The translations under genes were made by a program, and so were the position numbers. A stretch of DNA of 64,000 nt from Motilibacter peucedani (GTDB taxonomy: Bacteria; Actinomycetota; Actinomycetes; Motilibacterales; Motilibacteraceae). The DNA is taken from NCBI RefSeq assembly GCF_003634695.1, contig NZ_RBWV01000015.1, positions 1-64,000 of the forward strand, in the 5' to 3' direction. The notes beneath the pieces are model-generated. The model was given only the letters and a program-made list of their open reading frames with translations. It was not told the DNA's origin and made no database searches. Of the stretch, positions 42,602 to 61,154 are shown piece after piece; positions within the stretch are counted from its first letter, which is position 1, and each line of letters begins with the position of its first letter.

Positions 42602-42625
42602 CCGGCCGGTCGCTGCAGACGTGCC

Positions 42626-42662
42626 TAGACTGCTGCCACGAGTCCATGTGAACGCGTTCACA
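42626..42662 (+). promoter_or_regulatory. Promoter with a perfect CRP/GlxR-type operator ahead of menJ
   Basis: TAGACT (42626-42631) is a TANNNT -10 box. The 16-base palindrome TGTGAACGCGTTCACA (42647-42662) matches TGTGA-N6-TCACA, the consensus of actinobacterial cAMP receptor-type regulators (CRP/GlxR), in every defined position. Centred about 17 bases after the predicted transcription start, it would act as a repressor site. The menJ ATG is at 42706. LacI-type operators have a central CG, whereas the centre here is GC, so that reading is less likely. Confidence 0.7.
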
Positions 42663-42705
42663 AGGGGTCTCGACAGGCGCAGGCACGAGGAGGTGACGGC
42701 GGACG

Positions 42706-43995
42706 ATGAGCGTGACGAGCGGAGCGGTGCAGGGCATCGCGGGCAGCACCGAGGCAGACGTCGTCGTCGTCGGTGCCGGGCCCGCCGGGTCCACCACGGC
42801 CGCCCACCTGGCGCGTGCCGGGCTCGACGTCTGCCTGGTCGAGAAGACCGCCTTCCCGCGCGAGAAGGTGTGCGGCGACGGCCTGACCCCGCGCGCGGTC
42901 GCCCAGCTGGTCAAGCTCGGCATCGACACCAGCGAGCAGGCCGGCTGGCTGCGCAACAAGGGCCTGCGCATCCTCGGCGGCGGCCACACCCTCCACATGC
43001 CCTGGCCCGAGCTGGCCAGCTTCCCCGACTACGGCCTGGTGCGCCGGCGCGACGACTTCGACGAGCTGCTGGCGCGCACCGCGCAGAAGTCGGGCGCCCG
43101 GCTGGCCGAGCGCACGGCAGTGACGGAGCCGCTGCTCGACGAGCGCAGCGGCCGGGTGACCGGCGTGCGTGCCAAGGGCCCCGAGGGCGAGCCGCTCGAG
43201 GTGCGGGCCCCGCTGGTGATCGCGGCTGACGGGAACTCCTCCCGCCTCTCGCTGGCCCTGGGCCGGCGCCCGCGCGACGACCGCCCGATGGGCGTCGCCG
43301 TGCGCGCCTACTACACCAGCCCCCGCGACAAGGACGACTGGCTCGAGTCGTGGCTCGAGCTGTGGGACGGCTCCAACCTGCTGCCCGGCTACGGCTGGGT
43401 GTTCGGCATGGGCGACGGCACGAGCAACGTCGGGCTCGGCATGCTCAACACCACCAAGGCGTGGGGCACGGTCGACTACCGCGACCTGCTGCGGCGCTGG
43501 CTCGACGGCACGCCCGAGGAGTGGGGGCTGCGCGAGCCCAACCGCGTCGGACCCGTGCGCGGGGCGGCGCTGCCGATGGGCTTCAACCGCCAGCCCCACT
43601 ACGACCGCGGCCTGCTGCTCGTCGGCGACGCCGGCGGCATGGTCAACCCGTTCAACGGCGAGGGCATCGCCTACGCGATGGAGTCCGGCGCCATGGCGGC
43701 CGAGGTCGTCGCGCAGGCGCTGTCGCGAGCGGAGGGCCCGGCGCGGGAGAAGGCGCTGGCCGCCTACCCGCAGGCGCTCAAGGACACCTGGGGCGGCTAC
43801 TTCACCCTCGGGCGCGCCTTCGTCAAGCTCATCGGCGACCCGCGCGTCATGCGCGTCGCGACCTCGCGCGGGCTCTCGCACGAGACGCTGATGAAGTTCA
43901 CCCTCAAGCTCCTGGCCAACCTCACCGACCCGCGCGGCGGGGACGCCATGGACCGGATCATCAACGGCCTCGCCAAGGTGGCGCCGTCCGCGTGA
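42706..43995 (+). CDS. menJ: Geranylgeranyl reductase-family protein, probable menaquinone reductase MenJ
   Basis: A 429-residue FAD-dependent reductase of the geranylgeranyl-reductase family. The dinucleotide-binding motif DVVVVGAGPAGSTTAAHL is at about residues 12-30. CGDGLTPRAV is the family's substrate/FAD motif, and GDAGGMVNPFNGEGIAYA is the second FAD motif. In mycobacteria the homologue saturates one isoprene unit of the menaquinone tail, and the gene lies near menG and a polyprenyl synthase, as here. A role in other isoprenoids (archaeol-like lipids, carotenoids) is less likely. Transcription is probably controlled by the CRP-type site upstream. A hairpin separates it from nuoA. Confidence 0.85.
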   Translation: MSVTSGAVQGIAGSTEADVVVVGAGPAGSTTAAHLARAGLDVCLVEKTAFPREKVCGDGLTPRAVAQLVKLGIDTSEQAGWLRNKGLRILGGGHTLHMPWPELASFPDYGLVRRRDDFDELLARTAQKSGARLAERTAVTEPLLDERSGRVTGVRAKGPEGEPLEVRAPLVIAADGNSSRLSLALGRRPRDDRPMGVAVRAYYTSPRDKDDWLESWLELWDGSNLLPGYGWVFGMGDGTSNVGLGMLNTTKAWGTVDYRDLLRRWLDGTPEEWGLREPNRVGPVRGAALPMGFNRQPHYDRGLLLVGDAGGMVNPFNGEGIAYAMESGAMAAEVVAQALSRAEGPAREKALAAYPQALKDTWGGYFTLGRAFVKLIGDPRVMRVATSRGLSHETLMKFTLKLLANLTDPRGGDAMDRIINGLAKVAPSA

Positions 43996-44005
43996 CCGAC
44001 CCGGC

Positions 44006-44027
44006 GCGCTGCCGACGAGGGCAGCGC
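44006..44027 (+). terminator. Stem-loop between menJ and nuoA
   Basis: GCGCTGCC (44006-44013) and GGCAGCGC (44020-44027) form a perfect 8-base stem with a 6-base loop, ten bases after the menJ stop. The downstream sequence is not T-rich, so termination is likely partial. It would allow the nuo operon to be driven mainly from its own promoter. Confidence 0.5.
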
Positions 44028-44036
44028 GGCAGCACT

Positions 44037-44042
44037 TAGGAT
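44037..44042 (+). promoter_or_regulatory. Candidate -10 box of the nuo operon
   Basis: TAGGAT matches TANNNT and follows the hairpin at 44006-44027. A start about seven bases downstream would give a 5' leader of roughly 40 bases to the nuoA GTG, which has GAGGAG. No -35 hexamer was recognised. Confidence 0.4.
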
Positions 44043-44088
44043 GCGGCGCCCGACGACGGAGTCGGGGCACACAGAGAGGAGCGCTCGC

Positions 44089-44445
44089 GTGGACTGGGTT
44101 CCCATCGCGTGGCTGGGCGCGCTGTCGTTCGGCTTCGCCGTCTTCTCGCTGGTCTCCGGCGCGCTGTCCGGGCCGCGCCGCTACAACCGCGCCAAGGCCG
44201 AGGCCTACGAGTGCGGCATCGAGCCGACGCCCCAGCCGGTCGGCGGCGGTCGCTTCCCGGTGAAGTACTTCCTCACCGCCATGCTGTTCATCCTCTTCGA
44301 CATCGAGATCATCTTCCTGTACCCCTGGGCGGTCACCTTCGACAGCCTCGGGGTCTTCGGGCTGGTCGAGATGGTGCTGTTCGTCGGCACGGTCTTCGTC
44401 GCGTACGCCTACGTCTGGCGGCGCGGCGGCCTCGAGTGGGACTAG
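44089..44445 (+). CDS. nuoA: NADH-quinone oxidoreductase subunit A
   Basis: A 118-residue membrane subunit of complex I with three hydrophobic segments. The family motif YECGIEPTP with [15 protein letters not shown] is complete; the Cys is in the loop lining the quinone cavity. GTG 44089 has GAGGAG seven bases upstream and gives the normal NuoA length; the longer frame to 44041 would overlap the promoter. It is the first of fourteen nuo genes in standard order, with 55 bases to nuoB. Confidence 0.95.
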
Positions 44446-44500
44446 CGGCACCTCAGCTCCAGCACCAGCACCCGACCGAGCACGAAGGCGAGTTCGCACC

Positions 44501-45055
44501 ATGGGTCTCGAAGAGAAGCTGCCGAGCGGCTTCGCGCTGTCGACGGTCGAGGGGCTGGCCGGCTACATGCGCAAGGCCTCGCTCTGGCCGGCGACGTTCG
44601 GCCTGGCCTGCTGCGCCATCGAGATGATGACGTTCGGCGGGCCGAAGTACGACTCGGCGCGCTTCGGCATGGAGGTCTTCCGCGCCTCGCCCCGCCAGGC
44701 CGACCTGATGATCGTCGCCGGCCGGGTGAGCAACAAGATGGCCCCCGTGCTGCGCCAGATCTACGACCAGATGGCCAACCCCAAGTGGGTCATCGCCATG
44801 GGCGTGTGCGCCAGCAGCGGCGGCATGTTCAACAACTACGCCATCGTGCAGGGCGTCGACCACATCGTGCCGGTCGACATCTACCTGCCCGGCTGCCCGC
44901 CGCGGCCCGAGATGCTGCTCGACGCGATCCTCAAGCTGCACGACAAGATCCAGCACACCCCGCTGGGCTCCGACGCCGTGCGCGCCGACCTGCAGGCCGA
45001 GCAGCTCGCCCTCGCCGCCCCGCCCACCAGCGCCCAGCGCGGGCTGCTGCGATGA
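44501..45055 (+). CDS. nuoB: NADH-quinone oxidoreductase subunit B
   Basis: A 184-residue subunit that holds the N2 [4Fe-4S] cluster next to the quinone site. The four ligands are Cys37 and Cys38 (GLACCAIE), Cys103 (MGVCASSGG) and Cys132 (LPGCPPRPE). The C-terminal 30 residues are a variable tail. The stop overlaps the nuoC start as ATGA. Upstream is only a weak AAGG, so translation may depend on the nuoA transcript context. Confidence 0.97.
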
Positions 45056-45798
45056 GCGACGTGCGCGAGCCCTCGACCGCGCTCGAGGCCAAGGACGCGG
45101 GCCAGCAGCCGGAGGCGCAGCCCGACCCCGCCGCGAGCGGCGTGCCCAACGAGGTCTTCGAGCAGCGCCGCGGGTTCTTCGGCGTGCGCAACGGGCCCGA
45201 CACCACCGGCTACGGCGGCCTCGTGCGCCGGGTCCAGCTGCCCGGCTCGAGCGCTCGGCCCTACGGCGGCGTGTTCGACGAGGTCGCCGACGCCCTCGAG
45301 CGGGCCTACCCCCAGCTCGACGAGGCGCTCGAGCGGGTCGTCGTCGACCGCGGCGAGCTGACGTTCGTGGTGCGCCGCACGCACCTGCTGCAGGTGATGC
45401 AGGTGCTGCGCGACGACCCGGCGCTGCGCTTCGAGTTCTGCGCGGGCGTCGCGGGCATCCACTACCCCGAGGACGCCGGCCGCGAGTACCACGCGGTCTG
45501 GCCGCTGCTGAGCATCACGCACAACCGCCGCGTACGCGTGGAGACCACCGCGCCCGCCGCCGACCCGCACGTCCCCAGCGTCGTGCGCGTCTACCCGGGC
45601 GACGACTGGCACGAGCGCGAGGCCTGGGACCTGGTCGGCATCGTCTTCGACGGGCACCCCGCGCTCACGCGCATCCTGATGCCAGACGACTGGCCCGGGC
45701 ACCCGCAGCGCAAGGACTACCCGCTCGGCGGCATCCCCGTCGAGTACCACGGCGCGCAGATCCCGCCGCCGGACGAGCGGAGGTCGTACAGCGGATGA
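45052..45798 (+). CDS. nuoC: NADH-quinone oxidoreductase subunit C
   Basis: A 248-residue subunit of the peripheral arm (30 kDa family). The signature ERE(A)[23 protein letters not shown] is in the second half, followed by [11 protein letters not shown]. The N-terminal 35 residues are Glu/Ala/Pro-rich and variable. ATG 45052 overlaps nuoB, and its stop overlaps nuoD (ATGA). Not fused to NuoD, as expected outside enterobacteria. Confidence 0.96.
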
Positions 45799-47135
45799 GC
45801 ACCACCATGACCGACGGCTACGCGGGCGGCGAGCCCGCCGAGGGCCGCGTCTTCACCGTCTCCGGCGGCGGCGACTGGGACGAGGTGATCAGCGGTGACC
45901 TGGGTAGCGACGTCGGCAACGAGCGCATCGTCGTGAACATGGGCCCGCAGCACCCCTCCACCCACGGAGTGCTGCGCCTGATCCTCGAGATGGAGGGCGA
46001 GACCGTCACCGAGACCCGTCTCGGCATCGGCTACCTCCACACCGGCATCGAGAAGAACTGCGAGTACCGCACCTGGACCCAGGGCGTCACCTTCGTGACG
46101 CGCATGGACTACCTGGCGCCGTTCTTCAACGAGGCCGCCTACGTGCTCGGCGTCGAGCGGCTGCTCGGCATCGAGGACCAGATCCCCGAGCGGGTCAACG
46201 TCATCCGAGTGATGATGATGGAGCTCAACCGCGTCTCCTCCCACCTCGTGGCGATCGCCACCGGCGGCATGGAGCTCGGCGCTCTCACCGTCATGACCAT
46301 CGGGTTCCGCGAGCGCGAGCTGATCCTCAAGGTGTTCGAGACGGTCACCGGCCTGCGCATGAACCACGCCTACTTCCGGCCGGGCGGCCTCGCCCAGGAC
46401 CTCCCGCAGGGCGCGGAGCAGCTGGTGCAGGAGACCGTCGACCTCGTCCGCAGCCGGCTGCACGAGTACGCCGACCTCTGCAACGAGAACTACGTGTTCA
46501 AGGCCCGCACCGTCGGCGTCGGCTACCTCGACCTCACCGGCTGCATGGCCCTGGGCATCACCGGGCCGATCCTGCGAGCCACGGGCCTGGCGCACGACCT
46601 GCGCAAGTCCCAGCCCTACTGCGGCTACGAGGCCTACGACTTCGACGTCGTCACCCGCGACACCTGCGACGCCTACGGCCGCTTCCGGGTCCGCCTCGAC
46701 GAGATCGAGCAGTCGCTCTCGATCGTCGAGCAGTGCCTGGCCCGCCTGAAGCCCGGGCCGGTGATGGTGGAGGACAAGAAGATCGCCTGGCCCTCGCAGC
46801 TCGCGCTGTCCGGTGACGGTCTCGGCAACTCCCTCGACCACATCCGCCACATCATGGGCGAGTCGATGGAGGCCCTGATCCACCACTTCAAGCTCGTGAC
46901 GGAAGGCTTCCGCGTGCCACCAGGGCAGGTCTACACCGCTGTCGAGTCGCCCCGCGGCGAGCTCGGCTGCCACCTGGTCAGCGACGGCGGCACCCGGCCC
47001 TACCGCGTGCACTACCGCGACCCCTCGTTCAGCAACCTGCAGGCGGCGCCGGCCATGACCGAGGGCTCCCAGGTCGCCGACGTCATCGCGGCCGTCGCCT
47101 CGATCGACCCGGTCATGGGCGGGGTGGACCGCTGA
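45795..47135 (+). CDS. nuoD: NADH-quinone oxidoreductase subunit D
   Basis: A 446-residue 49 kDa-type subunit forming much of the quinone pocket. [14 protein letters not shown] and [14 protein letters not shown] are the family motifs, with the conserved His and Tyr of the quinone site nearby. The C-terminal [14 protein letters not shown] and Arg-containing segments complete it. ATG 45795 overlaps nuoC. A second ATG at 45807 is possible. The stop shares its last base with the nuoE start (TGATG). Confidence 0.97.
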
Positions 47136-47956
47136 TGGCGATCAGCGAGCAGGCCCTGGTGCGCCTCGAGGCCGACGCCGCCGAGGTGATCGCGCGCTAC
47201 CCGCGCCCGCGCTCGGCGCTGCTGCCGCTGCTGCACCTGGTGCAGTCGGAGGAGGGCTGGGTGAGCCCCGAGGGCGTCGAGCTGTGCGCCCGCTGGGTGG
47301 GCCTCACCACCGCAGAAGTGACTGCTGTGTCGACGTTCTACTCGATGTACCGCCGCGAGCCCGGCGGCGACTACAACGTCGGCGTCTGCACCAACACCCT
47401 CTGCGGGGTCCTCGGCGGCGACGCCATCCTCGAGCGGCTCGAGAGCCACCTCGGCGTCCACCACGGCGAGACCGCGGGCAACGTGACGCTCGAGCACCTC
47501 GAGTGCAACGCGGCCTGCGACTACGCGCCGGTCGTGATGGTCAACTGGGAGTTCTACGACAACCAGACGCCGTCGAGCGCGGTCGAGCTCGTCGACGCGC
47601 TGCAGGCCGGCACCCCGCCCGCTCCCTCGCGCGGCGTCGGCCGGCTGTGCACCTTCCGCGAGACCGAGCGCGTGCTCGCCGGCTTCGAGGACGGGCTGGC
47701 CGACACCGGCACCGGCTCCGGACCGGCCACCCTGGCGGGCCTGCGGCTGGCGCGCGAGCGCGGCTGGTCCGCGCCCCGGCCCGGCACGACGAGCACGTCG
47801 GCCGACGGGGCAGGGGCGCCTGCGACCGGCTACGGCCGGTCCGGCGGCCCCAGCGGCGACGACGCACCACTGCGTACCGCCGCCTCCGACCCCGCCAACA
47901 CCACGCCCGCCGCTGCCAGCGGCTCCGGCTCCGGCAAGCCCGAGGAGCGTCCGTGA
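47135..47956 (+). CDS. nuoE: NADH-quinone oxidoreductase subunit E
   Basis: A 273-residue 24 kDa-type subunit carrying the N1a [2Fe-2S] cluster; the ligands are Cys85, Cys90, Cys124 and Cys128 (CTNTLC and CNAAC). The thioredoxin-like core ends around residue 200. The remaining 70 or so residues form a Gly/Ser/Ala/Pro/Thr low-complexity tail, making this NuoE longer than most. The start overlaps the nuoD stop, and the nuoF GTG overlaps its stop. Confidence 0.95.
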   Translation: MAISEQALVRLEADAAEVIARYPRPRSALLPLLHLVQSEEGWVSPEGVELCARWVGLTTAEVTAVSTFYSMYRREPGGDYNVGVCTNTLCGVLGGDAILERLESHLGVHHGETAGNVTLEHLECNAACDYAPVVMVNWEFYDNQTPSSAVELVDALQAGTPPAPSRGVGRLCTFRETERVLAGFEDGLADTGTGSGPATLAGLRLARERGWSAPRPGTTSTSADGAGAPATGYGRSGGPSGDDAPLRTAASDPANTTPAAASGSGSGKPEERP

Positions 47957-49275
47957 CCGACCTGCTCACCCCGATGCTGTCGCGCACGTGGGACTCCGAG
48001 CGCTCCTGGTCGCTCGCGGCCTACCGCGACAAGGACGGCTACCGCGGCCTGCACGCCGCGCTGTCGATGTCGCCGGCCGACCTGATCGGCTTGGTCAAGG
48101 ACTCCGGCCTGCGCGGGCGCGGGGGAGCGGGCTTCCCCACGGGCATGAAGTGGGACTTCATCCCCAAGGACGACGGCAAGCCGCACTACCTCGTGGTCAA
48201 CGCCGACGAGAGCGAGCCGGGCACCTGCAAGGACATCCCGCTGATGATGGCCTCGCCGCACCAGCTGGTCGAGGGCGTCGTCATCGCCTCCTACGCGATC
48301 AAGGCGACGCACGCCTTCATCTACGTACGCGGTGAGGTGGCCTCGGTCTACCGCCGGGTGCTGGCCGCGGTGCGCGAGGCCTACGACGCGGGCTACGTCG
48401 GCAACGACATCCTCGGCTCGGGCTACAGCCTCGAGATCGTGGTGCACGCGGGCGCTGGCGCCTACATCTGCGGCGAGGAGACCGCGCTGCTCGACTCGCT
48501 CGAGGGCTACCGCGGCCAGCCGCGGCTGCGGCCGCCGTTCCCGGCGATCGCCGGCCTCTACGGCTCGCCGACGGTCATCAACAACGTCGAGTCGATCGCC
48601 AGCGTCCCGGTCGTCGTGCTCAACGGCGCCGACTGGTTCAAGTCGATGGGCACCGAGAAGTCCGCCGGCGCCACGATCTACTCGCTCTCCGGCCACGTGC
48701 AGAACCCCGGCCAGTACGAAGCCCCGCTGGGCATCACGCTGCGCCAGCTGCTCGAGATGTCGGGCGGCGTGCGCGAGGGCCACGAGCTGAAGTTCTGGAC
48801 ACCTGGCGGGTCGTCGACCCCGCTGCTGACGGCGGAGCACCTCGACGTGCCGCTCGACTACGAGGGCGTCGGCGCGGCGGGCTCCATGCTCGGCACCAAG
48901 GCGCTGCAGGTCTTCGACGAGACGGTGTGCGTGCTGCGGTGCGTGCTGCGATGGACGCAGTTCTACGCCCACGAGTCGTGCGGCAAGTGCACCCCGTGCC
49001 GCGAGGGCACGTGGTGGCTCGTGCAGGCGCTGGCGCGCCTCGAGGCCGGCGACGGCACCGAGGAGGACCTCGACAAGCTGCTGGACCTGTGCGACAACAT
49101 CCTCGGCCGGGCGTTCTGCGCGCTGGGCGACGGTGCGACCAGCCCGATCACCAGCTCCATCAAGTACTTCCGCGAGGAGTACGTCGCCCACTTCGTCAAC
49201 GGCGGCTGCCCCTTCGACCGGGCCGCCTCCACGCTGTTCGCCTCCGACCTCCTCGCCTCCGGAGCAGCACTCTGA
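47953..49275 (+). CDS. nuoF: NADH-quinone oxidoreductase subunit F
   Basis: A 440-residue 51 kDa-type subunit that binds NADH and FMN and the N3 [4Fe-4S] cluster. [13 protein letters not shown] is the NADH/FMN glycine-rich motif, and [12 protein letters not shown] follows. [16 protein letters not shown] gives three cluster cysteines, with the fourth near [14 protein letters not shown] 47953 overlaps nuoE. Its stop joins nuoG as TGATG. Confidence 0.97.
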
Positions 49276-51830
49276 TGACCGTCACCACCACCAGCGGCGC
49301 CGCCAGCGGGGGCGAGGTCCAGCCCGAGGTCGAGCTGGTCTCGCTGACCATCGACGGGTTCGAGGTCTCGGTGCCCAAGGGCACGCTGATCATCCGCGCG
49401 GCCGAGCTGCTCGGCATCGCGATCCCGCGCTTCTGCGACCACCCGCTGCTCGACCCGGTCGGCGCGTGCCGCCAGTGCCTGGTCGTCGTCAGCGACATGG
49501 GCAACGGGCGCGGGATGCCCAAGCCGGCCGCCTCGTGCACGACCACGGTCATGCCCGGCATGGTCGTCGAGACCCAGCTCGCCTCCCCGGTTGCCGACAA
49601 GGCGCAGAAGGGGGTCATGGAGCTGCTGCTCATCAACCACCCCCTCGACTGCCCGGTGTGCGACAAGGGCGGCGAGTGCCCGCTGCAGAACCAGGCCATG
49701 AGCAACGGGCGCGGCGAGAGCCGCTACGAGGGCGTCAAGCGCACCTACCCCAAGCCCATCCCGATCTCCCCGCAGGTCCTGCTCGACCGCGAGCGCTGCG
49801 TGCTCTGCGCCCGGTGCACCCGCTTCTCCCAGCAGGTGGCGGGCGACCCGTTCATCGAGATGCTCGAGCGCGGCGCGCTGCAGCAGGTGGGCATCTACGA
49901 GAAGCAGCCGTTCGACAGCTACTTCTCCGGCAACACGGTGCAGATCTGCCCGGTCGGCGCGCTGACCGGTGCGCAGTACCGCTTCCGCGCCCGGCCCTTC
50001 GACCTGGTCTCGACTCCTACGGCCTGCGAGCACTGCGCGTCCGGCTGCTCGCTGCGCACCGACAGCCGGCGGGGCAAGGTGCTGCGCCGGATGGCCGGCG
50101 ACGACCCCCAGGTCAACGAGGAGTGGAACTGCGACAAGGGCCGCTGGGCCTTCCAGTACGCGTTCGCGAAGGACCGCATCTCCTCGCCCCTGGTCCGTGA
50201 CGAGTCGGGGGCGCTGGTCCCGACCTCGTGGCCCGACGCCCTCGACGTCGCCGCCCGCGGCCTGGCCGCCGCCCGCGGGCGCGGCGGGGTCGGCGTGCTG
50301 CCGGGCGGCCGGCTCACGCGCGAGGACGCGTACGCGTACGCGAAGTTCGCGCGCGTCGTGCTCGGCACCAACGACGTCGACTTCCGCGCGCGCCCGCACT
50401 CGGCCGAGGAGGCCGCGTTCCTCGGGGCGCTCGTCGCCGGCCGCGGGCCGGCACAGGGCGCGGTCACCTACGCCGACCTCGAGCGCGCCTCCACGGTGCT
50501 CCTCGTCGGGCTCGAGCCCGAGGAGGAGTCGCCCATCCTGCTGCTGCGCATGCGCAAGGCGGTGCGCAAGAAGGGCCTGCGGGTCCTGGCGCTGGCGCCC
50601 TTCGTCACCCGCGGACTGCGCAAGCTGACCGGAGAGCTGGTGCCCACCGCTCCCGGCACGGAGGCCGAGGTGCTCGACGCGCTCGGCGCAGGCGGCGAGC
50701 TGGCCCAGACCGGCGACGCGTTGCGCTCACCGGGCGCCGTGGTGCTCGTGGGCGAGCGGCTGGCCGAGTCGCCGGGTGCGCTATCCGCCGTCGCCCGGCT
50801 GGCCGCCGCCACGGGCGCGCGCGTCGGCTGGGTGCCGCGCCGCGCGGGCGACCGTGGTGCCCTCGACGCCGGCGCGCTGCCCACCCTGCTGCCGGGTGGC
50901 CGCCCGGTCGACACCCCGGAGGCCCGGGTCGACGTGGCCGCCGCGTGGGGGGTCGGCTCGCTGCCCACCGCCGCCGGGCGCGACCTCAGCGCCATCCTGG
51001 CCGCCGCCGCCGAGGGCTCGCTCGCCGGCCTGGTCGTCGGTGGCGTCGACCCCGACGACCTGCCCGACCCCGAGCTCGCCCGCCGCGCGCTCTCGACGGC
51101 CTCCTTCGTCGTCAGCCTCGAGCAGCGGCACAGCGCCGTCACCGCCGAGGCCGACGTGGTGCTGCCCGTGGCCTTCGACGTGGAGCGCGAGGGCAGCTAC
51201 CTCGACTGGGAGGGGCGTCCGCGCGAGTTCGCCACGGTGCTGTCCAACCCCCAGCTCGCCTCGCCGATGCTGCCCGACACCCGGGTGCTGCACCTGCTCG
51301 CCGAGGAGCTGGGGGTCGAGCTCGGCCTGCCCGACGTGCGCAGCGCGCGCGCCGAGCTCGAGGAGCTGGGTCCCTGGGAGGGCAGGCGGACCGCTGCGCC
51401 GGCCGCAGGCGTACCCGCACCTCCGCAGCCCGCAGCGGGCCAGGCGGTCCTGTGCACCTGGCACGAGCTGCTCGACGCCGGCCGCCTCCAGGACGGCGAG
51501 CCGCTGCTCGCCGCCACCGCCCACGTGCCCGTGGCCCGGGTCTCGGCGCCCACCGCGGTCGAGCTCGGCTTCTCCGGCCCCGGTCCTGCTGGCCTCGGCG
51601 AGCTCACCGTCTCGACCGGGCGCGGGTCGCTGACGCTGCCGCTCGTCGTCACCGACATGCCCGACCACGTCGTGTGGGTGCCGACCCGGTCGGCCGGCAG
51701 CGAGGTGCGCAAGGCGCTCGGCGTCGGCAACGGCGCGACCGTCTCGGTCGAGCGCAGGGTCGCGGCGGCCGTGCTCGACGCGCCGGCCGCGGACGCCGCA
51801 GGAGACACCACTCAGGAGGACGCGCTGTGA
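49275..51830 (+). CDS. nuoG: NADH-quinone oxidoreductase subunit G
   Basis: An 851-residue 75 kDa-type subunit. N-terminal ferredoxin domain: [2Fe-2S] ligands around FCDHPLL and GACRQC. The His-ligated cluster is in [17 protein letters not shown], and another [4Fe-4S] is in CVLCARC with a later Cys. CEHCASGC plus a downstream Cys (WNCDKGRW) indicates that the off-pathway N7 cluster is retained. A molybdopterin-oxidoreductase-like domain without cofactor fills the rest. The start is at the nuoF stop, and the stop overlaps nuoH (GTGA). Confidence 0.96.
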
Positions 51831-53131
51831 ACCACGCGCAGCAGCTGCTCGCCGACGACCCCTGGTGGCTGATCGCCGGCAAGGCCGTCGTGATCTTCGG
51901 CTTCCTGGTGCTCATCACGCTGTTCAACATCTGGTTCGAGCGCCGCGTCGTCGCGCGCATGCAGCACCGCGTCGGCCCGAACGTGCACGGCCCGTTCGGG
52001 CTGCTGCAGTCGCTGGCCGATGGCGTGAAGCTGGGGCTCAAGGAGGACGTGATCCCGAAGGGCGCCGACAAGGTGGTCTTCGTGCTCGCGCCGCTCATCT
52101 CGGTGACGCCCTCGTTCCTGGCCTTCGCCGTCATCCCGTTCGGGCCCGAGGTCTCGGTCTTCGGCGAGCGCACGACGCTGCAGCTGGCCGACTTCCCGGT
52201 CGGCGTGCTCTACGTGCTGGCCATCGCCTCGATCGGCATCTACGGCATCGTGCTGGCCGGCTGGTCGAGCGGCTCGACCTACCCGCTGCTGGGCGGCCTG
52301 CGCTCGAGCGCTCAGATGATCTCCTACGAAGTCGCCATGGGGCTCAGCTTCGTGGCGGTGTTCCTCTTCGCCGGGTCCATGAGCACCTCGGAGATCGTCG
52401 CCGCGCAGCACCGCGTCTGGTACGCACTGGTCTTGGCGCCCTCGTTCATCATCTACTTGATCTCGATGGTCGGCGAGACCAACCGTGCGCCGTTCGACCT
52501 GCCGGAGGCCGAGGGCGAGCTCGTCGGCGGCTTCCACACCGAGTACAGCTCGCTGAAGTTCGCGCTGTTCTTCCTCGCCGAGTACATCAACATGGTCAAC
52601 GTCTCCGCGCTGGCCGTCACGATGTTCCTCGGTGGCTGGCGGGCGCCCTTCCCGCTCTCGCTGTGGGCCGGTGCCAACGAGAACTGGTGGCCGGTGCTGT
52701 GGTTCGTCGCCAAGGTGATGATCCTGATCTTCGTCTTCGTGTGGCTGCGCGGCACGCTGCCCCGGCTGCGCTACGACCAGTTCATGCGGCTGGGCTGGAA
52801 GCGGCTCATCCCCGCGTCGCTGGTGTGGATCCTCGCGGTGGCGACCCTGCGGGTGCTCACCAACGACGACTCGCTCACGAAGACCCAGCGCTACACCACG
52901 GTCGGCATCGCGATCGCCGTGATCGTGGTGGCCTTCGCCGCCTGGGACGTGCTGGCCGGTCGCAAGGAGCCCGACGAGCCCGCCCGGGTGCACCGCGCCC
53001 CGGTCGAGCGCGACCCGTTCGCCGGTGGGTTCCCGGTGCCGGCACTGCCCGGCGAGTCGCACAGCGCCCCGGTGGTCGCGCACGCGCAGCGCACGACCGA
53101 CACTGACGAGCAGGAGGTCACCCATGCCTGA
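51827..53131 (+). CDS. nuoH: NADH-quinone oxidoreductase subunit H
   Basis: A 434-residue membrane subunit at the junction of the two arms, lining the quinone tunnel. [15 protein letters not shown] and [20 protein letters not shown] are the conserved cytoplasmic loops with the acidic and Arg residues of the family. Eight or so hydrophobic segments are visible. The C-terminus has about 70 extra hydrophilic residues, common in actinobacteria. GTG 51827 follows AGGAGG. Its end overlaps nuoI by 8 bases. Confidence 0.97.
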
Positions 53132-53774
53132 GCCCAGCACGACGCCCGAGCCGGGGCTGCTCGACGGGGTCAAGGGCTTCGCCGTCACCTTCGGCACGAT
53201 GTTCCGCAAGCCGGTGACCGAGCAGTACCCCCGCGAGAAGGTGCCGACGGCGCCGCGGTTCCACGGCCGCCACCAGCTCAACCGGCACCCCGACGGGCTC
53301 GAGAAGTGCATCGGCTGCGAGCTGTGCGCCTGGGCGTGCCCCGCCGACGCGATCTACGTCGAGGGCGCCGACAACACCGAGGAGGAGCGGTTCTCCCCGG
53401 GCGAGCGCTACGGCCGCGTCTACCAGATCAACTACCTGCGCTGCATCCTCTGCGGCCTGTGCATCGAGGCGTGCCCGACGCGCGCGCTGACGATGACCAA
53501 CGAGTACGAGCTGGCCGACACCACGCGGGAGAGCCTGATCTACGACAAGGAGGACCTGCTCGGGCCGATGCTGCCGGGCATGGTCGAGGCGCCGCACCCC
53601 ATGGCCGAGGGGACCGACGAGCAGTCCTACTACTCGGGCAGGGTCGCCAGGGCGACGGACGCGCAGATCCGCTACGTTGCCGAGCGCGCCGCCGAGTCGG
53701 CAGGCAGCGGTGCCCCCGGCGCCGAGCCGGCGACCACGGGCGCCACCGCGGCGACCGGGCAGGTCAGCTCGTGA
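53124..53774 (+). CDS. nuoI: NADH-quinone oxidoreductase subunit I
   Basis: A 216-residue subunit with two [4Fe-4S] clusters (N6a, N6b). The ferredoxin motifs are [11 protein letters not shown] (Cys62, 65, 68 and 72) and [11 protein letters not shown] (Cys107, 110, 113 and 117). The C-terminal 40 residues are low complexity. ATG 53124 has CAGGAGG seven bases upstream. The stop overlaps nuoJ (GTGA). Confidence 0.97.
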
Positions 53775-54568
53775 CGGGCACCCTGGCAGCCGCGACGACG
53801 TCCAGCACGGAGGCCATCGGCTTCTGGCTGCTCGCGCCGCTCGCGGTGCTCGCCTCGGTCGGCATGCTGCTGGTGAAGAAGGCCGTGCACTCGGCGCTGC
53901 TGCTCGTCGTGACCATGGTGGTGCTCGCCGCCTTCTACCTCGCGCAGAGCGCCCCCTTCCTCGGCGTCGTGCAGATCGTCGTCTACACCGGCGCGGTCAT
54001 GATGCTGTTCCTGTTCGTGCTGATGCTGGTCGGCGTCGACTCCAGCGAGTCGCTGGTCGAGACGATCCGCGGGCAGCGGCTGGTCGGGCTGCTGCTGGCG
54101 CTCGGCTTCGCCGCCATCGTCGTCGGTGCGCTGGGCCGGGCCGCGTTCGGCGACCGCCGTCCCGTCGGGCTCGGAGCCGCGAACGCGCAGGGCAACGTGC
54201 AAGGCATCGCCCAGCTGCTGTTCACCCGCTACGTGTTCGCCTTCGAGGTCACCAGCGCGCTGCTCATCACGGCGGCGCTGGGCGCCATGGTGCTCACCCA
54301 CCGCGAGGCCATGGCCCCGCGCCTGACGCAGCGCGAGCTGTCGGAGGCGCGCTTCCGCAGCTCGACCCACCCCGGGCCGCTGCCGCCTCCGGGCGTCTAC
54401 GCGCGCCACAACGCCGTCGACTTCCCGGCGCTGCTGCCCGACGGCACCACCTCGGACCTCTCGGTCTCGAAGGTGCTGGTCGCCCGCGGCGACGTGCAGG
54501 ACATCCGGCACGGCGCGCACCCGGTGGCCGACGACGTGCGCGAGATCGAGGAGAGCGGACACCCGTGA
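53771..54568 (+). CDS. nuoJ: NADH-quinone oxidoreductase subunit J
   Basis: A 265-residue membrane subunit with five hydrophobic segments. The third contains the conserved [20 protein letters not shown] helix with its flexible pi-bulge Tyr-Thr-Gly. The last 80 residues are a hydrophilic extension. GTG 53771 overlaps nuoI. The nuoK GTG overlaps its stop. Confidence 0.96.
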
Positions 54569-54864
54569 ACGTCGCCAACTACCTCTACCTCTCGGCGATC
54601 CTGTTCTCCATCGGCGCCGCCGGCGTGCTGCTGCGGCGCAACGCGATCGTCGTGTTCATGTGCGTCGAGCTCATGCTCAACGCGGTCAACCTCTCGTTCG
54701 TCACCTTCGCGCGCATCCAGGGCAACCTCGACGGCCAGATCATCGCGTTCTTCGTGATGGTGGTCGCGGCCGCCGAGGTCGTCGTCGGGCTCGCCGTGAT
54801 CATCACCATCTTCCGTGCCCGCCGCTCGACCTCGGTCGACGACGCGAACCTGCTGAAGTACTGA
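54565..54864 (+). CDS. nuoK: NADH-quinone oxidoreductase subunit K
   Basis: A 99-residue subunit of three transmembrane helices. Conserved membrane glutamates of the proton path are in [11 protein letters not shown] and [10 protein letters not shown]. It has the usual NuoK length. The GTG start overlaps nuoJ, and nuoL begins 10 bases downstream. Confidence 0.97.
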
Positions 54865-54874
54865 GGACGGACGC

Positions 54875-56770
54875 GTGACCTCCACTTCGTACGCGCTGGC
54901 GCCTGCCCTGCTCGCGCTGCCCGTGGCCGGTGCCGCGGTGCTGCTGCTCGGCGGACGCCGCACCGACCGGTTCGGCCACGTCATCGGCACGCTGGCCTCG
55001 GTCGCGGCCTTCGTGGTCGCGGCCGTCGTCTGGGTGCAGATGATCGGCCGCGACGAGGCCGACCGTCCCGCGGTGCAGAAGCTCTGGACCTTCGTCCACA
55101 CCGGCGGCTTCCGTGTGGACGTCGGCCTGCAGCTCGACCAGCTCTCGATCGTCTTCGCGCTGCTCATCACCGGCGTCGGGTCGCTGATCCACGTCTACTC
55201 GATCGCCTACATGGAGCACGACGCCCACCGGCGCCGGTTCTTCGCCTACCTCAACCTGTTCGTCGCGGCGATGCTGCTGCTGGTCCTGGCCAGCGACTAC
55301 CTGCTCGTCTACGTCGGCTGGGAGGGCGTGGGGCTGGCGTCCTACCTGCTCATCGGGTTCTGGAGCCACAACCCGCCCTACGCGACCGCGGCGAAGAAGG
55401 CGTTCGTCGCCAACCGCGTCGGTGACATCGGCATGTCGCTGGCCATCGTCATGATGTTCACGACTTTCGGCGCCACCGACTTCGCACGCGTGCTGCCCAA
55501 CGCCGGCTCGGCGAGCGACGGGCGGCTGACCGCCATCGGCCTGCTGCTCCTGCTCGCCGCCTGCGGCAAGTCCGCCCAGCTGCCGCTGCAGTCCTGGCTG
55601 GGCGACGCCATGGCCGGTCCGACGCCGGTGTCGGCCCTGATCCACGCGGCGACGATGGTGACTGCCGGGGTCTACCTCATCGTGCGCTCCGGGGCGATCT
55701 TCGACGAGTCGCCCGACGCCCGCCTGGTCGTGACGATCGTCGGTGCCGCGACGCTGCTGTTCGGTGCGCTGATCGGCACGGCCAAGGACGACGTCAAGAA
55801 GGCGCTCGCCGCCTCGACCATGAGCCAGATCGGCTACATGGTGCTGGCCGCGGGCCTCGGACCCGCCGGCTACGCGATCGCCATCTTCCACCTGCTGACG
55901 CACGGGTTCTTCAAGGCCGGGCTCTTCCTCGGCGCCGGCTCGGTGATGCACGCGATGGGCGACCGCACCGACATGCGCCGCTTCGGCGGGCTGTGGCGGG
56001 TCATGCCCGTCACCGGCGCGACCTTCGGCCTCGGCTACCTCGCCATCATCGGCTGCCCGCCGTTCTCCGGCTTCTGGAGCAAGGACAAGATCATCGAGGC
56101 CGCCTTCGACAAGGGCGGCACGAGCGGCTGGATCCTCGGCCTGGTCGCCCTGCTCGGCGCCGGCATCACCGCCTTCTACATGACGCGCGTCTTCGTCATG
56201 ACGTTCCTCGGGCCGCGCCGCTGGCGCGACGACGTGCACCCGCACGAGGCACCGACGCTCATGACCGCGCCGATGGTCGTGCTCGCGCTCGGCTCGGTCT
56301 TCCTCGGTGGCGTCCTCACCATCGGCGCGACCCTGCAGAACTGGCTCGAACCGGCCGTGGGCAAGAGCGCCGAGGAGGGCGCCCACACGATGTCGCCGCT
56401 GGTGCTCAGCCTGCTGACGCTGCTGGTGGTGCTGGGCGGCGTCGCCGGTGCGGCCGCGATGTACGCGCGCCGCGAGGTCCCGCTCACCGCTCCGGTCGCG
56501 GGCCCCCTGACCGTCGCGGCCCGCAACGACCTCTACCAGGACGCGGTCAACGAGGCGGTGCTCATGCGCCCCGGCCAGTACGTCACCCGCTCGCTGGTCT
56601 TCGGCGACCTGCGCGGGGTCGACGGCCTGGTCAACGGGTTCGCCGCCGTCATCGGCGGCACCTCGGGACGCCTGCGCCGGCTCCAGACCGGGTTCGTCCG
56701 CAGCTATGCCCTGTCCGTGCTCGGCGGCGCCGTGCTGCTCGCCGGCGCCCTGCTGATCGTGAGGATCTGA
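54875..56770 (+). CDS. nuoL: NADH-quinone oxidoreductase subunit L
   Basis: A 631-residue antiporter-like subunit, the distal proton pump with the long lateral helix. [18 protein letters not shown] carries the key membrane Glu. [20 protein letters not shown] and [14 protein letters not shown] hold the conserved lysines. GTG 54875 follows GAGGACG. There are 35 bases to nuoM. Confidence 0.97.
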
Positions 56771-56805
56771 AGCGATGACGCGACTGTCGAAGGCGAGCGT
56801 GCACC

Positions 56806-58356
56806 GTGGCTGACCCCGCCTTCCCCTGGCTCAGCGTCGCTGCGGCCGTCCCCGCCGTGGGCGCTCTCGCGGTGGCCGCCGTGCCGCGCGGGCGCGAGGA
56901 GCTCGCCAAGCGGGCTGCGCTCGCCGTCTCGCTGGTGACGCTGGCGCTGGTCCTCGTCGTGGCCCTGCAGTTCGACCGCGACTCGGGCCAGCACTTCCAG
57001 TTCACCGAGCTGCACGAGTGGATCCCGGCGCTGGGGGCGAGCTACTCGCTCGGCGTCGACGGCATCGCCCTGGTGCTGCTCGGGCTCACCGCGGTGCTCT
57101 CGCCGGTGTGCCTGCTGGCGTCCTGGAACGACGTGCCGAGCGAGGGACGCTCGCGACCGCAGGCCTTCTTCGCGCTGATGCTGCTCGTCGAGTCGCTGCT
57201 GGTGCTGGTCTTCAGCGCCACCGACGTCTTCCTCTTCTACGTCGCGTTCGAGTTCTCGCTGATCCCGATGTACTTCATCATCGGCGGCTTCGGTGGTCCG
57301 CGGAGGTCCTACGCGGCGGTCAAGTTCCTCATCTACTCGCTGCTGGGCGGCCTGCTCATGCTGGCCGCGGTCATCGGCACCTACGTCGCCGGCCCGGGCG
57401 GCGAGCGCGGCTTCCTCCGCACCACGCTCGAGGCGTCCTCGATCGACCCGACCACCCAGCGCTGGCTCTTCCTCGGCTTCATGGCGGCCTTCGCGGTCAA
57501 GGCGCCGCTGTGGCCGTTCCACACCTGGCTGCCCGACGCGGCGGCCGAGGCGCCGCCGGGGGGAGCGGTGATGCTCGTGGGCGTGCTCGACAAGATCGGC
57601 ACCTACGGGATGATCGCCTACTGCCTCCCGCTGTTCCCCGACGCGAGCGTCTGGGCCCGGCCGGTGGTCATCGCGCTGGCGGTCGTCGGCATCGTCTACG
57701 GCGCCCTGGTCGCGATCGGCCAGGCCGACATCATCCGGCTGGTCGCCTACACCTCGATCTCGCACTTCGGCTTCATCGCGCTGGGCATCTTCGCGATGAC
57801 GACGCAGTCGCAGAGCGGCTCGACCCTCTACATGCTGAGCCACGGCTTCTCGACCGCCGGGCTGTTCCTCATCGCCGGCATGCTCGTCCAGCGCCGCGGC
57901 TCCCGCCGGATCGCCGACTTCGGCGGGGTCCAGACGGTGGCGCCGCTGCTGGCCGGCAGCTTCCTGCTGGCGGGCCTCTCCAGCCTGGCACTGCCCGGCT
58001 TCTCGAGCTTCGTCAGCGAGTTCCTCGTGCTGGCAGGCACTTTCGAGCGCTACAAGGTCGTCGCCTGCATCGCGGTCACCGCGATCGTGCTGGCCGCGCT
58101 CTACATCCTCATCCTGTGGCAGCGCACGATGACCGGCCCGGTGGCCGAGGGGGTGGGCGGCGTCCGCGAGATGGTGGCCAGGGAGGCCTGGGTCGTGGCC
58201 CCCGTCATCGCCCTGCTCATCGGGCTCGGGGTCGCCCCGCAGGTCGTGCTCGACGTCGTCAACCCGGCTGTGGGCCGCACGCTACAGTCCGTCGACCAGC
58301 ACGACCCGGCCCCCGTGGCCGGGCAGGCGGCGACGGCCGAGAGGACGACGAAGTGA
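56806..58356 (+). CDS. nuoM: NADH-quinone oxidoreductase subunit M
   Basis: A 516-residue antiporter-like proton-pumping subunit. The membrane Glu is in YVAFEFSLIPMYFIIGGFGG. FHTWLPDAAAEAPPGGAVML and VAYTSISHFGFIALG are the other family motifs. GTG 56806 gives the normal N-terminus; a 12-codon frame starting at 56775 overlaps it but is not considered a gene. The stop overlaps nuoN as GTGA. Confidence 0.96.
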   Translation: MADPAFPWLSVAAAVPAVGALAVAAVPRGREELAKRAALAVSLVTLALVLVVALQFDRDSGQHFQFTELHEWIPALGASYSLGVDGIALVLLGLTAVLSPVCLLASWNDVPSEGRSRPQAFFALMLLVESLLVLVFSATDVFLFYVAFEFSLIPMYFIIGGFGGPRRSYAAVKFLIYSLLGGLLMLAAVIGTYVAGPGGERGFLRTTLEASSIDPTTQRWLFLGFMAAFAVKAPLWPFHTWLPDAAAEAPPGGAVMLVGVLDKIGTYGMIAYCLPLFPDASVWARPVVIALAVVGIVYGALVAIGQADIIRLVAYTSISHFGFIALGIFAMTTQSQSGSTLYMLSHGFSTAGLFLIAGMLVQRRGSRRIADFGGVQTVAPLLAGSFLLAGLSSLALPGFSSFVSEFLVLAGTFERYKVVACIAVTAIVLAALYILILWQRTMTGPVAEGVGGVREMVAREAWVVAPVIALLIGLGVAPQVVLDVVNPAVGRTLQSVDQHDPAPVAGQAATAERTTK

Positions 58357-59915
58357 ACACGGCTGCCGCGGTCGACACCTTCCCCACGCCCCACATCGAG
58401 TACTTCGCGCTCTCGCCGCTGTTCGTCGTCCTGGGCGCCGCCGTCGTCGCGGTCCTCGTCGAGGCGCTGGCACCACGCGCGTACCGGTGGGCGCTCCAGC
58501 TCGCGGTCTCGGTGCTCGGGCTGCTCGGCGCGCTGGCCATGGTCGGCGTCGTCGCCTCCGGCGACCGCCGGGGCGTGATGGCCGAGGGTGCGGTGGCCGT
58601 CGACGGTCCCGCTCTCTTCCTCCAAGGCACGATCCTGCTGCTGTCGCTGGCGGCGCTGCTGCTCATCGCCGAGCGCTCGCTCGACTCCGGCTCGGCCGGC
58701 GCCTTCACTCCGCAGGCGTCGGCGCTGCCGGGCTCCGACGCGGAGCGCTCCGGCGCGCTTGCCGGCGTCGCCCAGACCGAGGTCTTCCCGCTCACGCTGT
58801 TCGCGGTGAGCGGCATGCTGCTGTTCCCGGCGGCCAACGACCTGCTGCTGATGTTCGTGGCGCTCGAGGTGCTCTCGCTGCCGCTCTACCTGCTGTGCGG
58901 GCTCGCCCGCCGGCGCCGCCTGCTCTCGCAGGAGGCGGCGATGAAGTACTTCCTGCTCGGCGCCTTCTCCTCGGCGTTCTTCCTCTACGGCATCGCGCTG
59001 CTCTACGGCTACGCCGGCACCGTGCGCCTCTCGGGCATCGCCGACGCCGCTGCGACCGCCTCGGGCAGCGACGCGCTGCTCCTCACCGGGGTGGCCCTGC
59101 TGACCGTCGGCCTGCTGTTCAAGGTCGGCGCCGCGCCGTTCCACGCCTGGACGCCCGACGTCTACCAGGGCGCCCCGACGCCGGTGACCGGCTTCATGGC
59201 CGCCTGCACCAAGGTGGCCGCGTTCGGGGCCCTGCTCCGCGTCTACTACGTGGCGCTCGGCGGGCTCAAGTGGGAGTGGCGCCCGCTGATGTGGGGCGTC
59301 GCCATCCTGACGATGCTCGTCGGTGCGGTGCTCTCGCTCACCCAGACCGACGTCAAGCGCATGCTCGCCTACTCCTCGATCGCACACGCCGGCTTCCTCC
59401 TCGTCGGCGTGCTCGCGGCCGACGACAAGGGCATCTCGAGCGTGCTGTTCTACCTGGTCGCCTACGGCTTCGCGACGGTCGGCGCGTTCGCCGTCGTCAC
59501 CCTCGTCCGCGACGGGGCGGGCGAGGCCACCCACCTCTCCCAGTGGGCCGGCCTCGGGCGCCGCTCGCCCTGGGTGGCCGGCGCGTTCGCGCTGTTCCTG
59601 CTCGCCTTCGCCGGACTGCCGCCGACCTCGGGCTTCATGAGCAAGTACTCCGTGTTCAGCGCCGCGCTCGACGGCGGCGCCCCGCAGGTCGTCGTCGTCG
59701 GCGTGCTCGCCAGCGTCGTCGCCGCGTTCTTCTACGTGCGCGTCATCGTCCTCATGTTCTTCACCGAGCCGGGTGCCGACGCACCGGTCGTCGTGGTGCC
59801 CAGCATCCTCACGACCATCGCGCTCACCCTCGGCGTCGCGGTGACCCTGGTGCTCGGCGTGGCGCCCCAGCCGGTACTCGACCTCGCGTCCAACGCCGCG
59901 GGTTTCGTACGCTGA
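58353..59915 (+). CDS. nuoN: NADH-quinone oxidoreductase subunit N
   Basis: A 520-residue antiporter-like subunit. The Glu-bearing helix is LLMFVALEVLSLPLYLLCG. FHAWTPDVYQGAPTPVTGFM and KRMLAYSSIAHAGFLL are conserved. A low-complexity insertion around residues 110-135 distinguishes it from shorter NuoN proteins. It completes the fourteen-gene nuo operon. The polyprenyl synthase gene starts 9 bases downstream and is probably cotranscribed. Confidence 0.96.
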   Translation: MNTAAAVDTFPTPHIEYFALSPLFVVLGAAVVAVLVEALAPRAYRWALQLAVSVLGLLGALAMVGVVASGDRRGVMAEGAVAVDGPALFLQGTILLLSLAALLLIAERSLDSGSAGAFTPQASALPGSDAERSGALAGVAQTEVFPLTLFAVSGMLLFPAANDLLLMFVALEVLSLPLYLLCGLARRRRLLSQEAAMKYFLLGAFSSAFFLYGIALLYGYAGTVRLSGIADAAATASGSDALLLTGVALLTVGLLFKVGAAPFHAWTPDVYQGAPTPVTGFMAACTKVAAFGALLRVYYVALGGLKWEWRPLMWGVAILTMLVGAVLSLTQTDVKRMLAYSSIAHAGFLLVGVLAADDKGISSVLFYLVAYGFATVGAFAVVTLVRDGAGEATHLSQWAGLGRRSPWVAGAFALFLLAFAGLPPTSGFMSKYSVFSAALDGGAPQVVVVGVLASVVAAFFYVRVIVLMFFTEPGADAPVVVVPSILTTIALTLGVAVTLVLGVAPQPVLDLASNAAGFVR

Positions 59916-59923
59916 GCCCCCTC

Positions 59924-60943
59924 ATGCCTGCACCGATCTCGACCTCACCCCGCAGCCTCGGCCTCCCGGCGATCGACCCGGCCCTCGAGGCCGAGCTCGC
60001 CGACTCGCTCGAGGAGGTCGAGCGGCGACTGCGCGACGACGTCACGAGCGAGTTCGGCCTGGTCACCGACGCCGCCCGCCACCTGGTCGACGCGGGCGGC
60101 AAGCGCTTCCGCCCGATGCTCGCGCTGCTGGGCGCCCAGTTCGGCGACCCGGCGCGCCACGGGGTGGTCGAGGCGGCGGTCGTCGTCGAGCTGACGCACC
60201 TCGCCTCGCTCTACCACGACGACGTCATGGACGACGCGACGCTGCGCCGCGGGGCGCCGAGCGCCAACGTACGCTTCGGCAACTCGGTCTCGATCCTGGT
60301 CGGCGACTTCCTCTTCGCTCGCGCGGCGGCCCGCACGGCCGAGCTCGGGGCCGACGCGGTGCTGCTGCAGGCACGCACGTTCGAGCGGCTGGTCGTCGGG
60401 CAGGTCAGGGAGACCGCGGGACCCGGTGCCGGCGACCCCCTCGAGCACTACCTCGCGGTGCTGGCCGACAAGACCGGCTCGCTCATCGCCACGAGCGGTC
60501 GGCTCGGCGCCCTCCAGGCTGGCGCCAGCGAGCAGGTCGCCGACACGCTGACGCGCTTCGGCGAGCTCATCGGCGTCGCGTTCCAGCTCGCCGACGACCT
60601 CCTCGACGTCGAGGCCGAGTCACAGGCGTCCGGCAAGGCGGTGGGCACGGACCTGCGCGAGGGCGTCGCGACGCTGCCCGTGCTGTGGTTCCGTCGGGTC
60701 GCCGATCCGGCCGACCCCGCCGACGCGCGCCTGGCCGAGCTGCTCGACGGCGACCTCGGCGACGACGCCCGGCTCGCGGAGGCGGTCGCCCTGCTGCGCG
60801 CCCACCCGGCCATCGAGCAGGCCCGGGCCGACCTGGTGCGCTGGTCGGAGGACGCCCGGGCCGTGCTCGCCGACCTGCCCGACGTCCCGGCGCGGGCGGC
60901 CCTCGAGGCGCTGTGCGACGCAGTGGTGCAGCGCACCGGCTGA
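59924..60943 (+). CDS. Trans-polyprenyl diphosphate synthase (menaquinone side chain)
   Basis: A 339-residue all-helical trans-prenyltransferase that elongates allylic diphosphates with isopentenyl diphosphate. The two Asp-rich motifs are HDDVMDD (Asp99, 100 and 103) and LADDLLD (Asp224, 225 and 228), and GGKRFRP is at about 58-64. Immediate linkage to nuo and menJ indicates that the product is the polyprenyl donor for MenA (GrcC/HepT-like). The chain length cannot be reliably predicted. ATG 59924 lies ten bases after a TACGCT box that overlaps the nuoN end, so an extra promoter is possible. Confidence 0.92.
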   Translation: MPAPISTSPRSLGLPAIDPALEAELADSLEEVERRLRDDVTSEFGLVTDAARHLVDAGGKRFRPMLALLGAQFGDPARHGVVEAAVVVELTHLASLYHDDVMDDATLRRGAPSANVRFGNSVSILVGDFLFARAAARTAELGADAVLLQARTFERLVVGQVRETAGPGAGDPLEHYLAVLADKTGSLIATSGRLGALQAGASEQVADTLTRFGELIGVAFQLADDLLDVEAESQASGKAVGTDLREGVATLPVLWFRRVADPADPADARLAELLDGDLGDDARLAEAVALLRAHPAIEQARADLVRWSEDARAVLADLPDVPARAALEALCDAVVQRTG

Positions 60944-60953
60944 CTTCTGGACC

Positions 60954-60990
60954 TGTCTAGTAGACAAGTCGCGGTCCGCGGCGCTACGGT
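60954..60990 (+). promoter_or_regulatory. Promoter and palindromic operator of the cysteine dioxygenase module
   Basis: TAGACA (60961-60966) matches the -35 consensus in five of six positions, and TACGGT (60985-60990) is a TANNNT -10; the spacer is 18 bases. The -35 lies within the perfect palindrome TGTCTAGTAGACA (60954-60966), which extends imperfectly to 19 bases. A dimeric regulator bound there would cover the -35. The GTG of the predicted leader peptide follows the -10 by seven bases. The regulator is unknown. Confidence 0.55.
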
Positions 60991-60997
60991 GGACCTC

Positions 60998-61090: not shown

Positions 61091-61095
61091 CACCC

Positions 61096-61126: not shown

Positions 61127-61154
61127 CTCCGTCCGTCTCCCGAGGAGCCCGCGC

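Follow-up and report, generated by a model that had tools for sequence, protein, structure and literature searches.

Which regulator reads the palindrome ahead of the nuo operon of Motilibacter peucedani, and to what signal would the operon respond? In the window (the whole stretch of 64,000 nucleotides analysed here), a 104-bp gap between the end of one gene at 42601 and the ATG of the next at 42706 contains the exact 16-bp palindrome TGTGAACGCGTTCACA at 42647-42662. The sequence-only reading saw it as a perfect site for a cAMP/CRP-type regulator that would repress menJ and, by read-through, perhaps complex I. The fit to the CRP consensus TGTGA-N6-TCACA is indeed exact. With one flanking base per side, the palindrome becomes the 18-mer ATGTGAACGCGTTCACAA, which has one mismatch in the 14 fixed positions of the Rex operator (ROP) consensus TTGTGAA-N4-TTCACAA. 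The two consensus sequences overlap, and they differ in the inner A6 and T11, which are fixed for Rex, and in the weight given to the outer bases. The locus is laid out as follows.

42626..42631, + strand: -10 promoter element TAGACT in a conserved arrangement, its first base 20 bp before the ROP
42638, + strand: expected transcription start, placed from the -10 spacing (about 7 nt after the -10)
42646..42663, no strand assigned: predicted Rex operator (ROP), 18-mer, identical to a footprinted ROP and conserved upstream of GGR
42689..42694, + strand: ribosome-binding-site-like GGAGGT, 11 bp before the ATG
42706..43995, + strand: FAD-dependent geranylgeranyl-reductase-family protein (MenJ-like; GGR), 429 aa, TIGR02032
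44089..44445, + strand: nuoA, NF005922, 203 bits, over the cut-off of 155
44501..47956, + strand: nuoB, nuoC, nuoD and nuoE, with the NuoC start near 45091 within its open frame
47953..59915, + strand: nuoF, G, H, I, J, K, L, M and N
59942..60943 (start approximate), + strand: long-chain polyprenyl diphosphate synthase, best match NF042417 at 331.9 bits, below the cut-off of 600

Palindromes as such are unremarkable in the window (10 perfect 16-bp palindromes versus 4.7 expected), and CRP-like sites with up to two mismatches show no enrichment (4 versus 10.2 expected from shuffles). With 73% GC in the window, one would expect TGTGAA-N4-TTCACA 0.0001 times per 64 kb and 0.008 times per genome of such size, and the looser TGTGA-N6-TCACA 0.006 times per 64 kb. 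A chance palindrome is rejected on these expected counts together with the conservation described below. Exact TGTGA-N6-TCACA occurs twice in the whole genome, here and at C11:464255, and the Rex-type inner A and T are found only in the copy before GGR and nuo.

The site had also been placed just downstream of the predicted start, and this fits the promoter elements that we found. The ROP adjoins the predicted promoter by virtue of the -10 element 20 bp upstream, and would lie at about +9 to +26 if transcription starts near 42638. Among the 109 GGR-nuoA loci with a ROP that are introduced below, 107 have a TAnnnT starting 13-23 bp upstream of it, while three control windows of the same width gave 0, 2 and 1 of 109; the commonest hexamers are TAGACT (52 loci) and TACACT (39). 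No conserved -35 element was seen among the GGR promoters compared, and a consensus scan of 42450-44200, palindrome included, found no full sigma-70 promoter (-35 and -10).

A full-text literature search with the 16-mer returned a single paper, on Rex of Streptomyces avermitilis (PMC5355995). The ROP of cydA1 in that species is the identical 18-mer, and a Rex footprint protects -3 to +25 there, a start-relative position similar to the one expected here (PMC5355995). This resemblance suggests a roadblock or clearance-type repression. In the same species, Rex represses nuoA1-N1 and binds its promoter in gel shift and ChIP, nuoA1 expression is higher in the rex mutant, and NADH lowers Rex binding (PMC5355995). 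Repression of the leader gene, as proposed by the sequence-only reading, is a plausible and likely sign of control, and the regulator behind it is highly likely, judging by the sequence comparisons, to be Rex rather than CRP/GlxR. As far as sequence can tell, the signal would then be NADH/NAD+ and not cAMP. The attribution to a cAMP/CRP-type regulator gives way on three points: the identity with a footprinted Rex operator, the retention of the inner A6/T11, and the way in which the motif tracks rex.

The genome encodes candidates for both. A Rex gene at C11:5531-6277 matches the equivalog NF003992 at 329.2 bits (cut-off 226) and the Pfam domain PF06971 at 66.9 bits (cut-off 27); its product has eight matches among solved chains, seven of them named Rex and the best (2dt5) named 'AT-rich DNA-binding protein'. 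A CRP-like protein is encoded at C11:174274-174969, its best NCBIfam match being CRP (NF008732) at 99 bits, below the cut-off of 266, and the cNMP-binding domain occurs at six places in the genome, of which two were looked at more closely. Because Rex and a CRP-like protein are both encoded, gene presence alone is indecisive.

We therefore rely on how the site is conserved. From the class, 246 genomes were drawn; 145 have a GGR homologue (E 1e-90 or better) and 101 have none. We picked 120 genomes by the GGR protein, blind to the motif, comprising 115 further genomes and those of the window's own family. Left out were family f17 (24 genomes of one genus, taken as Streptomyces), since nuoA was expected further off there, and G100, since a contig edge truncates its match, which starts within the gene. 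Seven of the 145 genomes, four of them in the sample, have two GGR matches, of which one was used. At each locus, the ROP was placed at the best-matching position within the 400 bp upstream of GGR.

The distance from GGR to nuoA is at most 500 bp in 114 of the 120 genomes, and 109 of these 114 loci, in 23 of the 25 families seen, have a ROP with up to two mismatches upstream of GGR (26 with none, 33 with one and 50 with two). No ROP with three or fewer mismatches occurs inside the 114 GGR gene bodies, where the best match has four or more. The five loci without a ROP are those of G026, where the contig ends and provides no upstream sequence, of G087, which has rex, and of G028, G186 and G257, in which no rex was found. 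By rex status, the ROP is present at 107 of 109 loci from genomes with rex and at 2 of 5 from genomes without it (G078 and G220); both of the latter are drafts, and rex is present in most other genomes of their families. Six loci of the 120 fall outside the 500-bp limit. In G003, where GGR stands at a contig end, a ROP precedes GGR, and in G244 (f41) it precedes nuoA, 1.9 kb on, rather than GGR. No ROP was found before GGR in G128, G024 and G217, which have no nuoA in the next 2.5 kb, or in G041, where the contig ends and no rex was found. Family f15 (e.g. L209, L225, L232, L269 and L270) has, in 14 of 24 genomes, a second ROP-like site with 2-4 mismatches between GGR and nuoA, besides the ROP before GGR.

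A set assembled by protein similarity comprises 85 loci, 80 named ones and five from the own family, the window's locus included. At 16 of them nuoA directly follows GGR, and a ROP stands upstream of GGR at 12, 13 and 14 of these with up to one, two and three mismatches, respectively. L037 and L080 have no ROP despite GGR adjoining nuoA and a rex in the genome; L103 and L104 are near relatives and share one site. At 22 loci of Streptomycetaceae, GGR and nuoA are set apart by other genes (0.7-2.2 kb); all 22 have a ROP (two mismatches) before nuoA, and none has one before GGR, where the best matches have 5-8 mismatches. The ROP thus moves with nuoA in this family, and we conclude that the operator is part of the nuo transcription unit. 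Another 47 loci stop short of nuoA and are little informative: L029 has a ROP upstream of GGR, and the other 46 have matches with at least five mismatches. A smaller set of 23 loci includes nine found via the motif itself and 14 chosen motif-blind. Among the genomes behind a choice of the 85 loci and those of the own family, 23 in all, rex was found in 21, the exceptions being the MAGs of L053 and L104, in which the ROP is present although no rex was found.

The bases that are kept at these sites distinguish the two regulators. Of the 109 homologous sites, 107 have the Rex core GTGAA-N4-TTCAC without a mismatch and just 30 the full CRP consensus. A scan by the CRP consensus with up to two mismatches, which does not favour Rex, still finds A and T at the free positions in 102 of 109. 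The first CRP position is C or A in 72 of the 109 relatives (C in 65), and the last is G in 48. We favour Rex over CRP because the inner A6/T11 is kept in 23 families and the outer CRP bases are not.

The centre of the palindrome argues against GlxR in particular. Its half-sites TGTGA and TCACA and its 16-bp size are those of the Corynebacterium glutamicum GlxR sites (TGTGANNTANNTCACA, PMC4254451), but its centre is GC instead of the TA of that consensus, its inner A/T is Rex-like, and its outer bases are unconserved in relatives. The other exact palindrome in the genome, TGTGATATAGATCACA at C11:464255, does have the GlxR centre; with its full GlxR fit, it is the better candidate for CRP control. 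That site (C11:464254-464271; L001, L123) stands ahead of a minus-strand RHS/YD-repeat open frame.

The third line of evidence is the distribution of the motif across the class. Exact TYGTGAANNNNTTCACAA occurs in 145 of the 246 genomes, and a reversed control pattern in one. Of the 186 genomes whose rex match passes the cut-off, 143 contain the motif and 43 lack it, and among the 60 without rex it is present in two (G078 and G209) and absent in 58; the three weakest of 189 rex matches fell below the cut-off and were counted as 'no rex'. The association gives 5e-26 in Fisher's test with related genomes treated as independent. The 43 are not all true negatives, since the exact pattern misses ATGTGAA...TTCACAA, the form in the window's own genome, and TCGTGAA...TTCACGA. 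As the sequence centre, the conservation and the link to rex all oppose it, CRP/GlxR is rejected as the main regulator, and the proposal that a cAMP-dependent protein of this type binds the site and represses the operon is very unlikely, even with an exact consensus match and a CRP-like gene in the genome.

Thirty motif loci, one per genome and not a random draw, were viewed in their surroundings. Nine precede GGR and six precede rex; L154 precedes a cytochrome bd subunit I gene, and L157, among the other 13, has a gene for a mandelate-racemase-like enzyme downstream. Seven flanking frames of other motif loci had no Pfam match. ROPs were also seen upstream of serA-type D-3-phosphoglycerate dehydrogenase genes at L176 (G091, one of the thirty), L181 (G002, C2:296583) and L182 (G003, C234:401341); G002 and G003 belong to the window's own family, and their serA products match TIGR01327 at 606 and 613 bits (cut-off 454).

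A shared operator, with Rex as main regulator and CRP competing for the site in some lineages including this one, would account for the exact TGTGA-N6-TCACA of the window's site and of those Streptomyces nuoA sites that read TTGTGAACTGCCTCACAT or TTGTGACCTGCTTCACAT. We consider it unlikely: the C or A at the first position in 72 of 109 relatives and the G at the last in 48 spoil the CRP site and leave the Rex core intact. A literature search for Crp acting on nuo in Streptomyces found no relevant paper within its scope, which did not extend to the main Streptomyces Crp paper (10.1128/mBio.00407-12).

If Rex is the regulator, its own gene in this genus is unusual. The Rex of the window's genome keeps RDLSHLG, and AVVRRD (in the AVVRRDLSHLGPTGTRG region) replaces AKLRKD and PTG replaces SYG; AKLRKD stands at that position in 14 of the 18 relatives displayed, and SYG in most. 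Rex of G001, from the same genus, also diverges in the recognition region. The rex loci of the genus (G000 and G001, about 3 kb each) have no ROP, with best matches at 6 and 7 mismatches, while 16 of 18 other rex loci scanned have one at 1-3 mismatches (G004 has 4 and G010 has 5). Since the recognition region is altered and the genus' rex locus has no ROP, the specificity or strength of Rex may have drifted. These same observations would suit a relic, in which Rex has drifted, lost its autoregulatory operator and no longer controls the operon in the genus. Such a relic is very unlikely, because both genus genomes keep the nuo operator with different spacer bases (ATGTGAACGCGTTCACAA and TCGTGAAGGACTTCACAA), which argues for ongoing selection, and the Rex of G000 still scores far above the cut-off.

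No second strong ROP was seen in the window's own genome, the rex locus included. The next-best matches to the Rex 16-mer have two mismatches (7 places in all, versus 5 for the reversed control pattern), and those to the 18-mer three (11 places in all, versus 4). By these counts, most of the weak ROP-like sites are near chance level. A broad Rex regulon was not seen among the other ten sites with up to three mismatches to the 18-mer. One of the ten (C11:464254) is the GlxR-like palindrome described above. Seven are overlapped by open frames of at least 100 aa, which is weak evidence of an in-gene position in GC-rich DNA, the GGR operator being overlapped as well. Two near-palindromes, C11:256369-256386 (L121) and C11:269003-269020 (L122), lie between divergent LacI-family regulator genes and sugar genes, the partner encoding L-rhamnose isomerase at L121 and a sugar-binding-protein-like product at L122; we take both to be probably LacI-type operators and not Rex sites. 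Rex here may serve a single operon, with weak sites or half-sites possible in addition.

The naming of the leader gene as menJ was too specific. Its product scores 274.5 bits with the geranylgeranyl reductase family TIGR02032 (cut-off 158.8) and 263.1 bits with the MenJ equivalog NF045655, where the cut-off is 700, so that only the family model is passed and MenJ identity is left unconfirmed; a GGR paralogue at C3 scores 109.6 bits with the MenJ model. We regard GGR as a candidate menaquinone-tail reductase. The gene directly after nuoN, for the polyprenyl diphosphate synthase, is a candidate for quinone-tail synthesis, and the placement of GGR before nuo and of this gene behind it would fit a quinone-tail role. 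On the other side of the operator, the gene at 39698-42601 encodes a 967-aa fusion of an FAD-linked oxidase and an iron-sulphur protein that resembles D-2-hydroxyglutarate dehydrogenase YdiJ (463 bits, below the cut-off of 1350).

Coupling of complex I to this promoter by read-through, suggested by the sequence-only reading, is plausible, with neither a terminator-like site nor a consensus promoter found between GGR and nuoA. Across 43900-61500, two terminator-like sites were found versus 2.5 expected, a number not above chance. The site itself, its position at a conserved promoter, its tie to nuo and rex and the rex gene in the genome are observations of the present analysis. By analogy with the Rex family, Rex would use the palindrome as its operator, situated in the core promoter from which GGR and nuoA-N would be transcribed as one unit. 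When NAD+ is plentiful and NADH low, a Rex dimer would sit at about +9 to +26, just past the -10 element, and hinder the start or escape of RNA polymerase. A rise in NADH, for example under oxygen limitation, would take NADH-bound Rex off the DNA and let the operon be transcribed, so that complex I, and probably the quinone-modifying enzyme too, would be made when NADH needs reoxidising. Rex binding, the NADH response, repression and read-through into nuo are thus expectations that the family provides.

Compared with the Rex regulon of Streptomyces (S. avermitilis, PMC5355995, and S. coelicolor as cited there), the 18-mer of the cydA1 ROP and the nuo target are the same. The arrangement is different: the ROP of S. 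avermitilis is 147 bp before nuoA1 (PMC5355995), whereas here it stands before the GGR gene that heads the nuo unit, and in the window's genome even the rex locus has no strong ROP of its own. Actinomyces oris likewise has a geranylgeranyl reductase gene (ANA_1625) adjoining nuoA, and transposon insertions in ANA_1625, nuoA, nuoJ and nuoG fall into one coaggregation-defective class, CS-2 (PMC5478893); unlike in the present case, Rex does not figure there, with 0 occurrences in the main text of that paper. The passages compared from PMC5355995, PMC5478893, PMC7831573, PMC9958174, PMC5317091 and PMC4172946 describe no ROP before GGR. The founding (PMC212721) and 2012 comparative (PMC3294762) Rex papers lie outside this comparison, and such sites could already be listed in the latter. 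Rex control of nuo is known in Streptomyces; the version with a GGR leader across 23 families is an extension of it.

We propose tentatively, as a possibility rather than an expectation, that promoter and Rex operator of the GGR-nuo unit form an ancient module of the class, which almost all genomes with a GGR-headed nuo operon have retained. Through it, NADH/NAD+ would determine how much complex I is made and, via the leader gene, how saturated its menaquinone partner is; in this genus, the Rex regulon would have been reduced to this operon alone, with rex no longer controlled by its own product. For annotation, the case is a warning that an actinobacterial palindrome with a perfect CRP fit may be a Rex site if it has A at position 6 and T at position 11. 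For the organism, a reading in terms of carbon catabolites (cAMP) is replaced by a physiologically sensible redox reading, in which NADH would induce the operon of a main enzyme of its own oxidation. The prediction that follows is that Rex control of complex I is not confined to Streptomyces and extends to no fewer than 23 other families of the sample. The regulated unit also gains a candidate quinone-modifying gene, and it becomes testable whether tail saturation follows the redox state.
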